From positions 70,174 to 115,516 of the forward strand of contig JAPLYL010000001.1 in assembly GCA_026395595.1 (NCBI GenBank): DNA of 45,343 nucleotides, in the 5' to 3' direction. Below the pieces are notes generated by a model that was not told where the DNA came from, did no database searches, and worked only from the letters and a program-made list of their open reading frames with translations. Source of the stretch: Candidatus Parcubacteria bacterium (lineage in GTDB: Bacteria; Patescibacteriota; Minisyncoccia; Phycocordibacterales; CAIJYI01). Below, one piece after another: positions 6,285 through 38,536 of the stretch (within the stretch, counting starts at the first letter, position 1; each line of letters starts with the position of its first letter). The translations under genes and the position numbers were made by a program.

Positions 6285-6326
6285 CCATGTTGTAAATTCT
6301 AGCATATGCTAGAATTTACAACATGG
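6285..6326. repeat. 42-bp perfect palindrome, copy 2
   Basis: 21-bp arms centred on CATATG at 6303-6308. The inner 38 bp (6287-6324) are identical to 671-708, and the outer bases differ between the copies but stay self-complementary. It lies between the cysteine desulfurase stop and the sod promoter region. Confidence 0.85.
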
Positions 6327-19147: not shown

Positions 19148-19183
19148 AAAGCAAAAAATCGCCATATGGCGATTTTTTGCTTT
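19148..19183. terminator. Palindromic terminator after tRNA-Gly
   Basis: AAAAAATCGCCAT/ATGGCGATTTTTT, perfect palindrome, just past the tRNA 3' end on the minus strand. Confidence 0.8.
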
Positions 19184-20488: not shown

Positions 20489-20517
20489 ATCGCGAGGTAA
20501 AACCTCGCGATTTTTTA
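20489..20517 (+). terminator. Intrinsic terminator of the 88-aa gene
   Basis: ATCGCGAGGT/ACCTCGCGAT with loop AAA and a T6 run. It overlaps the lepA stop on the other strand. Confidence 0.88.
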
Positions 20518-22335
20518 TTGTTTCATCATTTTCAGGAACACCTCATGCGGAATATTGACCTTCCCTTTTCCTCTCGCCTTCATCTTCTTCTTCCCTCTTT
20601 TTTGTTTTTCCAAAAGTTTCATTTTACGCGTGATGTCGCCTCCGTACAAATAATCGGTTACATCTTTACGCATAGCAGAAAGTGACCTTGATGAGATAAT
20701 TCTTCCTAATGCCTGCGACTGTATTTTTACGACAAACATCTGTCTTGGTAAAATATTGTGGAGTTTTTCCACGGCATCTTCGGCCTCTTCTTGAATTCTT
20801 TTTCTTGAGACTACGCGAGTAAAGGCGACAACCGGTTCTTCGGCTACCAAGATATCCAAACGCGCAACATCGGCGGGGCGCATGCCGGTAATTTTGTAGG
20901 AGAGCGAAGCATAGCCTGAACTGGCGCTTTTTAATTTATCGAAAAATCCGCGCATAAGCTCGCGCAACGGCATATCCACTTCTGTGGCATTGCGATTCTC
21001 TCCAAAAAGTTCTGATGCGCCGACTTCCCCCTCGTGTTCATAAAGGAGCGTCATAATGTTGCCAACGTATTCCGGCGGCGTAATAATCTTCGCTTTTACC
21101 CACGGCTCGGCGACTGATTTGTACGAACCGTAATCAGGAAACAGCGCAGGCGAGTAAATCATTTTTTTCTCGCCATTTAAGTATTCAACTTCGTAGGTAA
21201 TAGACGGCGTAGCAATGATCATGTCCAAGTCAAATTCTCGATGCAGACGTTCGGTAATAATTTCCAAATGGAGCATTCCGAGAAACCCGCAACGGAAACC
21301 GCGACCAAGAGAACCGGAAGTTTCTTCTTCATACGAGAGTGAGGCATCAGTAAGACGAAGCCGTCCGAGTGCTTGTTTCAATAAATTGAAATCGTCCTGT
21401 CCTTCGGGATAAACGGATGCCCACACGACCGGCGCGGGATTCATGTATCCGGGAAGCGCAAGACTTGGACGTTTGAATGAAGTCACTGTGTCTCCGACAG
21501 AGGCAATACCCGGCTGTTTGATGCCGGTTACGATATATCCGATCTCGCCCGCTTTGAGAGAGTCTTGAGGAACTTGATCCGGATGAAAAATGCCGACTTC
21601 AAGCGCAATGAATTTTTCATTAGCCGCACTAAAGAGAAGTATGTCATTCTTTTTCACTTCGCCATTAAACATACGGACATACACAATAACTCCGCGATGC
21701 GTGGAATATTGGAAATCAAAAACCAGCGCGCGCGGAGACTCCTCCCCTAGGTCAGTCCTAGGGGTTTCGGTTTCTTCTTGAGGGGGTTCAATTTTCTCAA
21801 TGACGGCGCGAAGAACTTCTTCAACACCTTCTCCTGTTTTTCCGGAAACGGCAAGAACCTCATTAATGTTACAATCAAGAAGCTGTGCCACCTCAGCTTT
21901 TACCTCCTCCGTTCGGGCAATCGGAGAATCGATTTTACTGACAACAGGAATAATAGTAAGCCCGGATTCGCGCGCCATTTCAAGGGTGGTCAATGTCTGC
22001 GCCTGCACGCCCTGAGTCGCGTCCACGAGCAAAATAGAGCCTTCTACGGCTTTCAGAGCGCGGGATACTTCATAAGAGAAGTCTATGTGTCCGGGAGTAT
22101 CTATCAAATTCAACACATAGGGATGCCCTTGGTATTCGTACTCCATTCTGACCGGCTGCATTTTGATGGTGATGCCTCGCTCGCGTTCAAGTTCCATGGA
22201 ATCAAGTACCTGCGCCATCATTTTGCGCTTCTCAATCGTGTGGGTGATTTCCAACATGCGATCAGCCAAAGTGGACTTCCCGTGATCAATATGAGCAATA
22301 ATGCTGAAATTTCTGATGTTTTTTCTATCTAACAT
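20515..22335 (-). CDS. lepA: Elongation factor 4 (LepA)
   Basis: 606 aa, the usual length. It is a ribosome-dependent GTPase that back-translocates or helps biogenesis of ribosomes under stress. G1 AHIDHGKSTL, G3 DTPGHIDF and the LepA C-terminal domain ending KQKRGKKKMKARGKGKVNIP are visible. Between the G domain and domain II, the usual short link P-P-x8-L-R-A-L-I-F-D is about 8 residues longer and is encoded by a palindrome (21744-21764). A -10 box TATTAT ends 7 nt before the ATG at 22335. Confidence 0.96.
   Translation of the reverse strand: MLDRKNIRNFSIIAHIDHGKSTLADRMLEITHTIEKRKMMAQVLDSMELERERGITIKMQPVRMEYEYQGHPYVLNLIDTPGHIDFSYEVSRALKAVEGSILLVDATQGVQAQTLTTLEMARESGLTIIPVVSKIDSPIARTEEVKAEVAQLLDCNINEVLAVSGKTGEGVEEVLRAVIEKIEPPQEETETPRTDLGEESPRALVFDFQYSTHRGVIVYVRMFNGEVKKNDILLFSAANEKFIALEVGIFHPDQVPQDSLKAGEIGYIVTGIKQPGIASVGDTVTSFKRPSLALPGYMNPAPVVWASVYPEGQDDFNLLKQALGRLRLTDASLSYEEETSGSLGRGFRCGFLGMLHLEIITERLHREFDLDMIIATPSITYEVEYLNGEKKMIYSPALFPDYGSYKSVAEPWVKAKIITPPEYVGNIMTLLYEHEGEVGASELFGENRNATEVDMPLRELMRGFFDKLKSASSGYASLSYKITGMRPADVARLDILVAEEPVVAFTRVVSRKRIQEEAEDAVEKLHNILPRQMFVVKIQSQALGRIISSRSLSAMRKDVTDYLYGGDITRKMKLLEKQKRGKKKMKARGKGKVNIPHEVFLKMMKQ
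21744..21764. repeat. Short palindrome inside lepA
   Basis: CCCCTAGG/CCTAGGGG with a 5-nt centre. It encodes part of TPRTDLGEE, a stretch absent from typical LepA. Confidence 0.55.
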
Positions 22336-28825: not shown

Positions 28826-29887
28826 TCAATATAATAGCATACCGTCGCCGAAAGAGAAAAAACGGAAATCTTTTTGCATCGCTTCTTGATAGAGTTCAAA
28901 AAGTTTTTCACGACCGACAAAAGCCGAAACCAGCATAAGGAGCGAAGACTTCGGCACATGAAAATTTGTAATCATGCCGTCAATAAATTTGAACTTGTCG
29001 CCCGGGCGAATAAATAACCGTGTTTCCCCTGAATTACACAGGACTACCCTGTGTACACAGGGTAGTCCTGTGTAATTGTTTTGTGCCCATTGTTCAAGTG
29101 TCCGTACCGTCGTTGTACCGACGGCAATTATCGGCCGGTCTTCTTTTTTGGCTTTTATCAGCGCCTTTGCGGTCTTTTCCGGAATTTCATACCATTCTTT
29201 ATGAAGCTTTCCTGTTTTCAGCGCTTCTTCCGTAAGCGGAGCGAACGTTCCAAGATTGACGTGAAGCGTCACAAATTCAATTTGAATTCCCCGCTTTTTT
29301 AATTTTGCCAGCAAACGATTCGTAAAATGAAGTGAAGCGGTCGGCGCGGCAACAGAACCGGTATTCTTCGCAAACACGGTCTGATATTTTTCGCGCAATT
29401 GCGTTTCTGAAAGTTTCGTATTTTTTATATACGGCGGTATCGGGGTTTCCCCATATTTCATAAAAATTTTCTGAACATCTTTTATCAGGAACGACGGCTT
29501 CAACGTATAAATTTTATCTTCTTTTCCAAGCGCTTCAAAAAAGACCTTATCCGTCAAAAAAACTTTTTCGCCGACTTCCAAAAAATGATTTGTAATTGCC
29601 AAAATGTTTCCCTCTTTTTCTCCCACATAAAAAACTTCCACTTTCCCTCCCGTCTTTTTCTTCACATGCAACCGCGCCGGAAAAACTTTCGTATCATTCA
29701 ATACCAAAATCGCGCCTTTCGGAAGATATTTCCCGATGTTCGCAAACGTATCAAAAAACCGCTCGCCCGTTTCGCGATTATAAACAAGCAACTTTGCCGA
29801 ATCCCGTGGCGAAGCCGGCTCAGCAGCAATAAGCGCCGAGTCAAATTCATAATCGTATTCAGCTAATGTTTCTTCAAGGGATTTCAT
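28826..29887 (-). CDS. queA: S-adenosylmethionine:tRNA ribosyltransferase-isomerase with an in-frame palindromic insert
   Basis: 353 aa. It makes epoxyqueuosine in tRNA and pairs with Tgt encoded nearby. Family segments are LVLNDTKVFPARL, GTFAPLTEE, PIIAVGTTTVRTLEQWA, SGETRLFIRPGDKFKFIDGM and ITNFHVPKSSLLMLVSAF. Between VRTLEQWAQN and SGETR lie about 15 residues (NYTGLPCVHRVVLCN) encoded by a 46-bp perfect palindrome. The frame is kept and the flanking motifs are intact. The ATG at 29887 has TATTGT 9 nt upstream. Confidence 0.93.
   Translation of the reverse strand: MKSLEETLAEYDYEFDSALIAAEPASPRDSAKLLVYNRETGERFFDTFANIGKYLPKGAILVLNDTKVFPARLHVKKKTGGKVEVFYVGEKEGNILAITNHFLEVGEKVFLTDKVFFEALGKEDKIYTLKPSFLIKDVQKIFMKYGETPIPPYIKNTKLSETQLREKYQTVFAKNTGSVAAPTASLHFTNRLLAKLKKRGIQIEFVTLHVNLGTFAPLTEEALKTGKLHKEWYEIPEKTAKALIKAKKEDRPIIAVGTTTVRTLEQWAQNNYTGLPCVHRVVLCNSGETRLFIRPGDKFKFIDGMITNFHVPKSSLLMLVSAFVGREKLFELYQEAMQKDFRFFSFGDGMLLY
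29032..29077. repeat. 46-bp perfect palindrome inside queA
   Basis: 23-bp arms, no loop. It contains GGACTACCCT and its complement AGGGTAGTCC, the same core as the inverted repeat at 37292-37352. It adds 15 codons without breaking the frame. Confidence 0.9.
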
Positions 29888-36722: not shown

Positions 36723-36758
36723 AAAACCCGCGCCGAAGTCTCGGCGCAGGTTTGTTTT
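36723..36758. terminator. Bidirectional terminator
   Basis: AAACC-CGCGCCGA/TCGGCGC-A-GGTTT with loop AGTC. It ends the GT4 gene and the 134-aa gene on the other strand. Confidence 0.82.
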
Positions 36759-37162
36759 TAATTCGCTTTTTTCTTGGGGACAACGGGAGCAAGGATCATA
36801 TTGATGAGATAGGTAATCTCTTTCAAATCTTCGGTTTTGTCGGCAAGCTCAGTAGGAACAAAAGCAACGTAATCTACTTGTCTTGGAAAAGAACGAAGAA
36901 ATTCTGCGTTGATATCGCCGTTGTAGTGCAGGCCATTATATTTTTCATGAGTATGGCCTTCAATATACAAGTATCCTTCATAACCGATTCCGTCGCTTCT
37001 CATGCGATAGATCCCGACAGTATCAGCGAGGCATCCTTGTCCCGGAGTTTTTCCGACCGCCATAACCGTCTTTCCTCCGCCGTCTTCCGCTAAAGCCAAA
37101 AACAGCCGTTCTTGGGGTGTTCCGGGAATACGGTCTTCCCCTATTCGTGTAATAAGTAACAT
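36758..37162 (-). CDS. Hypothetical protein, 134 aa
   Basis: No family recognised. It is soluble, with central GIGYEGYLYIEGHTHEKYNG and IPGTPQERLFLALAEDGGGK. His-Thr-His in EGHTHEKY could bind a metal, but that is speculative. The ATG at 37162 has AAGGAG 8 nt upstream, so the longer reading to 37195 is rejected. Confidence 0.75.
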   Translation of the reverse strand: MLLITRIGEDRIPGTPQERLFLALAEDGGGKTVMAVGKTPGQGCLADTVGIYRMRSDGIGYEGYLYIEGHTHEKYNGLHYNGDINAEFLRSFPRQVDYVAFVPTELADKTEDLKEITYLINMILAPVVPKKKAN

Positions 37163-37291
37163 GATTTTTACTCCTTCAAGTAATTCAATTTCCAAAGAGG
37201 ATTATATCACGTTTTACAAAAAAAGCAATACTAATCTCCGTTTCTGTTCATACCCTTAATCGTCATAAACATCTCAAGTCTGCCGCTCCAC

Positions 37292-37352
37292 CAAGGACTA
37301 CCCTTCCCCCGTCGCTCCGCTTCGCTGCGTTCCTCCTTAAGGGTAGTCCTTG
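37292..37352. repeat. Inverted repeat sharing its core with the queA palindrome
   Basis: CAAGGACTACCCTT (37292-37305) and AAGGGTAGTCCTTG (37339-37352), 14-bp arms around a 33-nt GC-rich centre (CGTCGCTCCGCTTCGCTGCG). It lies in the 240-nt gap between rodA and the 134-aa gene; nothing else is seen in that gap. Confidence 0.85.
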
Positions 37353-37405: not shown

Positions 37406-38536
37406 CTAACCCACTCCGAGAAATTCATGGCGTAAATCATCGCGATGAGCCGCGCGGTTGTATCTTCTCATTCCCATGAGAATTCCCAAACCGGTAAATT
37501 CAGTCAGCAAGTGCGAACCGCCGTAACTCATGAAAGGTATCGTGATTCCCGTTACAGGCAAAAGTCCGATATTCATTCCGACGTTGACTACGAAATGGCT
37601 GATAAAATAGATGGCAAGACCCATACCAAAAAGTATTTCAAAATTCGTTTCCCCCAGAAGCGCATTATGTAAAATTCGCCAGATGAGAATAGCAAAAAAG
37701 AGAAAAAGCAACACTACTCCCATGAACCCCCACTCTTCCGAAAAAGCAGCAAAGATAAAGTCGGTCTGATATTCGGGAAGGAAATTCAAACGAGATTGTG
37801 TCCCATATCCGACACCTTTGCCGAAAATTCCGCCCGAACCGATAGCAATCGTGGATTGGAAAGAATTGTATCCCGCGCCGCGGATATCGGCAAGAGGATG
37901 AATGAAAGTCATAATGCGCTGTTTTTGATACGGTTCAAAAACAAAATTCCAAAGGCCGCCGAAAGAAATGACGCCAAGCGTAAAAACCAGAATGATGTGT
38001 TTTTTTGAAATGCCGGAAACAAAAACCATTCCAAGCCAGATAAAAAGAAAAATGATGGCGGAACCGAAGTCCGGCTGAGCGGCGACAAGAACAAAAGGGA
38101 TAAAAGCATAAATTCCCGATACAATAATATGCCGGATATTCGCAATCTCAATATGTCGCCGGGAAAAGTATTTCGTGAGGACTAGAATGATAACCAGTTT
38201 CATAACATCGGCCGGCTGAAAAGCGGCGAAACCGACATTGAACCAGCTCTGCGCCCCTTTATAGACGCTCCCTACCGCAGCAAGAACAAGAAGTACGAAG
38301 CATCCGCTCAAGAACAAAGTAACAATAACCCATGTTCGTCGGAGAAACCGAAAATCAATAAAACTCAAACCAAAAAAAACGGCGGAGGAAATCGCAATCC
38401 ACGTAAGCTGTCTCATGGCAAAATTCCCCTTCCCTCCGAACGAACCCATGGTAATAACCCCGGCAAAAAGTATCGGGAAAGTGGAGAAAAAAAGTATCCA
38501 ATCAATGTGGAAGGTTCGTTTCAGGTGAGTAAACAT
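37406..38536 (-). CDS. rodA: RodA-type SEDS peptidoglycan polymerase
   Basis: 376 aa with about ten membrane helices. It polymerises lipid II for lateral wall growth, with a class B PBP partner not in the window. Family segments are GAQSWFNVGFAAFQPADVMK, AAQPDFGSAIIFLFIW, FLPEYQTDFIFAAFSEEWGF and TGITIPFMSYGGSHLLTEF. The layout favours RodA over FtsW. It starts 14 nt after the Cys-rich protein gene, one operon. Confidence 0.92.
   Translation of the reverse strand: MFTHLKRTFHIDWILFFSTFPILFAGVITMGSFGGKGNFAMRQLTWIAISSAVFFGLSFIDFRFLRRTWVIVTLFLSGCFVLLVLAAVGSVYKGAQSWFNVGFAAFQPADVMKLVIILVLTKYFSRRHIEIANIRHIIVSGIYAFIPFVLVAAQPDFGSAIIFLFIWLGMVFVSGISKKHIILVFTLGVISFGGLWNFVFEPYQKQRIMTFIHPLADIRGAGYNSFQSTIAIGSGGIFGKGVGYGTQSRLNFLPEYQTDFIFAAFSEEWGFMGVVLLFLFFAILIWRILHNALLGETNFEILFGMGLAIYFISHFVVNVGMNIGLLPVTGITIPFMSYGGSHLLTEFTGLGILMGMRRYNRAAHRDDLRHEFLGVG

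Follow-up and report, generated by a model that had tools for sequence, protein, structure and literature searches.

A palindrome within queA of a Parcubacteria bacterium as a probable REP-like repeat linked to a RAYT transposase

The palindrome and its host gene

The window analysed here, a stretch of 45,343 nucleotides from a Candidatus Parcubacteria genome (G000), contains a queA gene that carries a long perfect palindrome in frame. The features concerned are listed below, with a strand for the genes only.

28826-29887, minus strand: queA, host of the palindrome, 353 codons from ATG plus a stop codon
29032-29077: 46-bp perfect palindrome in queA, coding for NYTGLPCVHRVVLCN on the minus strand
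29035-29074: 40-bp repeated core, an inverted dimer of two 21-nt hairpins with a common central TA; identical core at four further genomic places, unit order reversed at three more
29035-29055: hairpin unit 1, TACACAGG-ACTAC-CCTGTGTA
29054-29074: hairpin unit 2, TACACAGG-GTAGT-CCTGTGTA, a unit that also stands alone at C2:50875 of genome G001
20515-22335, minus strand: lepA (elongation factor 4), host of a second hairpin
21744-21764: second in-frame hairpin of like architecture, CCCCTAGG-TCAGT-CCTAGGGG, inside lepA
37293-37351: intergenic relative of about 60 bp, an AAGG-ACTAC-CCTT ... AAGG-GTAGT-CCTT pair, between ORFs at 36758-37195 (minus) and 37406-38536 (minus)

The first-pass annotation of this DNA had reported a 46-bp perfect palindrome in frame in queA, and this is borne out by the letters themselves (AATTACACAGGACTACCCTGTGTACACAGGGTAGTCCTGTGTAATT), by a reading frame that stays open and in phase with the gene, by the identification of the host gene as a QueA equivalog (NCBIfam, 376.6 bits, over the cut-off) and by shuffling. 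When the window was shuffled 30 times under an order-1 Markov model, the longest palindrome had a mean length of 15.9 bp and was at most 22 bp, which rules out a chance origin. An assembly error private to one genome is likewise ruled out by independent genomes that carry the element. Folded as single-stranded DNA, the palindrome reaches -22.8 kcal/mol (z = -9.9) and forms a 21-bp hairpin, and a direct dimer in the queA gene of genome G002 folds into two hairpins.

The earlier claim that the palindrome adds 15 residues proved too simple. The sequence does encode NYTGLPCVHRVVLCN in frame, but the gap between the RTLE and SGxT motifs of QueA varies: it is 20 residues here, 7 in G001 (of the same genus), 25 in G002, where the element is likewise present, as the direct dimer, and 13 in a distant relative (G050). 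Compared with solved homologues, the protein is longer by 9 residues than Thermotoga maritima QueA (1vky) and by 7 than the QueA of 1yy3; a predicted model of low confidence (pLDDT 42.5) was set aside. The site is a loop in which changes of length are tolerated, and the element fills it. The queA copy, which adds a loop, probably has no regulatory role and is tolerated as a passenger. In the distant QueA proteins compared, the stretch is not conserved with non-palindromic codons, a pattern that the first-pass annotation had named as grounds for abandoning its claim. The search for an empty site that it had proposed gave no clean one with exact junctions among the genomes compared, G002 being occupied and G001 shorter and rearranged, so insertion is not directly shown.

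Further perfect palindromes lie elsewhere in the window. Two of them, at 666-713 (48 bp) and 6285-6326 (42 bp), have a common core, TGTTGTAAATTCTAGCATATGCTAGAATTTACAACA, are apparently situated in spacers and probably represent another repeat family without AGG/CCT. A 36-bp perfect palindrome at 19148-19183 (AAAGCAAAAAATCGCCATATGGCGATTTTTTGCTTT) adjoins a tRNA gene and is terminator-like.

The hairpin unit and its genomic copies

The exact 28-bp centre of the palindrome occurs five times in the 979-kb genome, each time within an identical 40-bp core, and three further copies have the two units in the opposite order. Core copies lie in frame in four genes, namely queA, argS, elp3 (an Elp3-family gene) and murC. 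The element is not confined to genes: two copies occupy spacers (C4:963 and C3:16381). Another two (C6:806-846 and C6:1534-1573) flank a Y1_Tnp (RAYT) gene, the 3' copy supplying the last codons of the transposase. The number of copies is low, at about 1 to 12 with the exact loop per genome, and recent transposition is therefore not demonstrated.

The AGGGTAGTCC core also occurs with other stems, in pairs or singly, at 37293-37351 of the window and at C5:3428, C2:12797 and C8:100111. The first of these corresponds to the recurrence of the core that had been annotated at 37292-37352. The core does recur there, but as part of a longer intergenic relative with another stem, which is a separate element; a similar pair is found at C5:3428-3472 of the same genome. 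A longer, MITE-like relative on C6 (L048:140-225; CCCAAGGTCTTCCCTTAAGGAG...GGGGAAAGGGGAGTCCTTGG) resembles this pair but has other loops.

The two units are found in both inverted orders, as one direct dimer (G002 queA) and as monomers (e.g. in G001). Since all these combinations occur, the basic unit is the 21-nt hairpin with a GTAGT loop and not the whole palindrome, which the annotation had taken as the unit. Reading the element as a GTAG followed by a hairpin, as in classical REPs, suits the unit order beside the RAYT gene but fails for the order in queA, for monomers and for single hairpins. Placing GTAG within the loop fits every arrangement. Two of the three reading frames through the 40-bp dimer are open, and its orientation is irrelevant owing to the palindromic symmetry. 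TA borders every core copy; as no clean empty site was found, a TA target-site duplication and a TA that is part of the element are inseparable.

Some hairpins are hybrids that combine the arms of two stem types (L123:1526 and L122:1809 (G002); L049:590). They are of the types TACCTAGG-GTAGT-CCTGTGTA and CCAAGG-GTAGT-CCTAAG, and it is possible that they are intermediates of exchange or decay.

The transposase between the copies

The gene flanked by core copies encodes a protein with the HUH/Y1 fold. Pfam Y1_Tnp (PF01797) scores over its cut-off and is the only Pfam domain detected, with no helix-turn-helix tail by Pfam in the G000 protein. The sole NCBIfam model for the protein is that of the REP-associated tyrosine transposases, which falls below its own cut-off. 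An AlphaFold2 model (pLDDT 92.5) finds its best PDB match in 4er8, a complex of a RAYT with a REP hairpin (E 4.4e-6), and IS200/IS605 transposases rank after it.

In G002, an orthologous transposase lies between copies of the same core. At the same locus in G001, the gene is chimeric relative to that of G000: its N-terminal part has diverged and its C-terminal part is nearly identical (L121:1235-1903), a pattern in the sequence that suggests recombination inside the transposase gene. The hairpins flanking the G001 gene have the stem ACAAGG, with the loop TACGC/GCGTA upstream and GTAGT downstream. Other Y1_Tnp genes of G000 are found near different sets of hairpins (L128, C8:7500-11000; L129, C2:500-4000), of TTTGGAGGTTTAACCTCCAAA types and CGGTTCGGGGTTGTACCCCGAACCG types, possibly further REP families.

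Hairpins around related transposases

Similar hairpins were sought around 80 related RAYT loci, mostly from lineages labelled Patescibacteria. Among the 72 loci with 300 nt or more of flank on each side, an AGG-N5-CCT hairpin with a stem of at least 6 was present upstream in 55, downstream in 51 and on both sides in 48. In 38 of these 48 two-sided loci a loop is common to both sides, so that the loop is mostly the same on the two sides of one RAYT and different between RAYTs. The density of the motif is 2.20/kb in RAYT flanks, compared with 0.057/kb elsewhere in the same loci.

As a guard against circularity, every odd-centred hairpin whose stem was 7 or longer was counted irrespective of motif. 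AGG/CCT was found in 136 of 173 such hairpins in the flanks and in 16 of 101 in the controls, and the next commonest triplet pair occurred 3 times. A GTAG or GTGG 0-2 nt 5' of the stem foot, which marks GTAG-tagged REPs, accompanied only 4 of the 136. Given these counts, the tag is AGG/CCT beside a 5-nt loop and not a GTAG foot, and the architecture common to the flanks of related RAYTs is stem-AGG-N5-CCT-stem.

Hairpins also occur inside the transposase genes. Both internal and flanking hairpins are present in 27 RAYT genes (a count that excludes L139, whose supposedly internal hairpin lies upstream of the start codon), and most of the internal ones share one position, immediately ahead of the HUH motif. 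The internal hairpin is identical to a flanking one in stem (6 nt) and loop in 26 of the 27. Permuting the partners gave a mean of 1.4 and a maximum of 7 matches, with relatedness among the RAYTs left uncorrected. The matches comprise 21 distinct stem-plus-loop types, and many matched changes must therefore have taken place. The protein loop at this site is often equally long with or without a hairpin, and some relatives have half-decayed arms.

Decorated genes and differences at the same site

In-frame hairpins were found in further genes by way of the loops CGTTG and TGGAA, and within the RAYT loci themselves. These genes include rnhA, miaA, a nifS/iscS-type gene, alaS (a dimer), atpG, rnhB, secA (in the C-terminal linker) and a secF-type gene. 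Within the window, LepA is 8 residues longer than Thermus thermophilus EF4. Just beyond the lepA stop codon, at 20489-20511, lies another AGG-N5-CCT hairpin (ATCGCGAGGTAAAACCTCGCGAT), followed by a T-run on the plus strand.

Three genes carry different hairpins at the same site in G000 and G001. In lepA, the coding strand reads CCCCTAGG-ACTGA-CCTAGGGG in G000 and CGAAGG-TCCAA-CCTTCG in G001, with no hairpin in G002. In argS, the stem is CACAGG in G000 and ACAAGG in G001 at the same codons; G002 has none and its protein is of equal length. In murC, G000 has a dimer and G001 a single CCGAGG-ACTGC-CCTCGG. At the control density of 0.057/kb, a particular 60-bp loop would contain such a hairpin with a chance of about 0.003, so the three pairs together are not due to chance. 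The argS hairpin is, in each of the two genomes, of the type that flanks its own RAYT, a match seen for argS only. The hairpins of argS and of the RAYT genes, which sit in loops of unchanged length, look like replacement, or like an old insertion in decay, rather than simple insertion. The same-site differences may reflect exchange in place, or loss followed by re-insertion at tolerant sites.

Interpretation

Together, these observations point to the palindrome being a mobile REP-like repeat of the non-autonomous kind, built as an inverted dimer of hairpins and cognate to the RAYT encoded elsewhere in the genome (probability roughly 0.85). Its mobility is inferred. Under this model, the RAYT, a single-strand HUH/Y1 transposase, would recognise the folded single-stranded hairpin by its 5-nt loop and its AGG/CCT neck, and would place or replace hairpin copies. 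Recognition of a loop has a precedent in the REPtrons of Stenotrophomonas maltophilia and Marinomonas, where some bases of the loop do not tolerate substitution (PMC8266576). Purifying selection would then leave copies only in tolerant loops and open frames, so that those surviving in genes would lie in surface loops tolerant of indels, with the frame left open. An occupied site could persist as one hairpin type is swapped for another.

A bolder proposal, to which we give clearly less than even odds, is that the RAYT system exchanges one hairpin type for another at persisting sites within essential genes, that protein loops thereby track the evolution of the transposase, and that the AGG/CCT loop-neck tag defines a third REP superfamily supplying the repeats that group 1 RAYTs have lacked. 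If true, a site-preserving exchange of single-strand hairpins would operate inside coding sequence.

An RNA element active in mRNAs, as a riboregulator, attenuator or stabiliser, and repeated only incidentally, would account for the strength of the hairpins and for terminator-like copies such as that at C19:19261 of G001, which is followed by a T-run; RNA roles are also possible for classical REPs (PMC3733652). Such an element is nevertheless improbable: copies lie within the coding regions of genes unrelated in function, equivalent places hold either unit order or a direct-repeat dimer, Rfam gives no match at the element's positions, and loop identity follows the transposase and not the host gene.

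The likeness to Rickettsia palindromic elements (RPEs) suggested by the first-pass annotation stands as far as behaviour is concerned, the element being repeated, palindromic and in frame within unrelated essential genes, with a different sequence. Two of the known RPEs, RPE-4 and RPE-6, have been identified with REPs that carry a CGTC tag (PMC3733652). A selfish coding insert of this kind without any connection to a transposase is slightly less probable still than an RNA element, since the RAYT gene is flanked by copies in three genomes, hairpin type tracks the RAYT and the element has no CGTC tag. Membership thus lies with the RAYT/REP system to which the repeat is cognate.

Imperfect inverted repeats can be made perfect by template switching, which may contribute to keeping the hairpin arms perfect. 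As the sole source of the palindromes, with ordinary loops made palindromic by hairpin repair independently at each site, it fits the unchanged net length of argS and of the RAYT loop but is the least credible explanation, because local mutation cannot yield identical 40-bp copies at unlinked sites that are also identical to RAYT flanks.

The preferred reading, that of a RAYT-cognate repeat, has several implications. Most of the 80 RAYT genes, with a signature of the subclass 2.1 type, have a clear cognate hairpin and a defined tag, so their DNA target can be tested directly; for the RAYT of this genome, single-stranded TACACAGGGTAGTCCTGTGTA would be the candidate substrate. In reduced genomes, a transposase-linked repeat adds loops to essential enzymes (queA, argS, murC, lepA, alaS, atpG and others). 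Sister genomes, taken in pairs, constitute natural experiments in which an intragenic hairpin changes and the reading frame is kept. The repeat family is apparently widespread and undescribed so far: in the literature searched, which covered few of the subscription journals, no paper joined RAYTs to repeats of Patescibacteria.

Comparison with known systems

The closest known systems are the GTAG-tagged REPs, REPINs and BIMEs with their RAYT (TnpA-REP) in Escherichia coli and the Pseudomonas REPtrons, which are likewise hairpins of 20-40 nt, often inverted dimers, found on both sides of the RAYT gene and scattered elsewhere (PMC3733652, PMC8266576, PMC3116915). As in a REPtron, the RAYT is flanked by repeat copies and a short stem-loop is repeated through the genome; as in a REPIN or BIME, two units are inverted; and the fold of the RAYT resembles that in the RAYT-REP complex 4er8. 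In contrast, the hairpins described here have no GTAG/GTGG foot, carry AGG/CCT beside a 5-nt loop and are low in copy number, and GTAG lies in the loop in this genus, the queA element included. The element is RAYT-linked and functions like a RAYT/REP system, yet it falls outside the GTAG-REP definition.

CGTC-tagged REPs, which include RPE-4 and RPE-6, have CGTC at one terminus, a feature that the queA element does not have. RPEs in general are in-frame palindromic insertions across unrelated protein genes, as is the repeat found here; it differs in being linked to a transposase and in having no CGTC tag such as that of RPE-4 and RPE-6.

Among transposases, the best fit is TnpA-Y1 subclass 2.1 (RAYT group 1), for which the published row gives NH[YF]H, FQ, Y[IV]HLNP and 238 aa (PMC6006769). 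The proteins compared here bear its signature (NHFH in 70/79, YIHLNP in 67/71, LFE or LFQ in 61/71) and, with NHFH, LF[EQ], YIHLNP, SS and about 220-240 aa, are putative members on the basis of signature and length. In the published survey, neither automatic nor manual searches revealed REP-like sequences near subclass 2.1 genes, which were linked to terminal inverted repeats instead (PMC6006769), whereas most of the RAYT genes studied here are flanked by hairpins.

REPs within genes have been described from other phyla, in tnpA of subclass 2.4 and in recB of Xanthomonas, and two species have different REPs at nearly the same position in recB (PMC3733652, PMC6006769). Like them, the present hairpins lie in frame, singly or as dimers, both in housekeeping genes and in the gene for the transposase. 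They differ in hairpin class and phylum, in the same-site differences of three genes in one pair of genomes, and in the matching of internal and flanking hairpins, in stem and loop, across 21 types.
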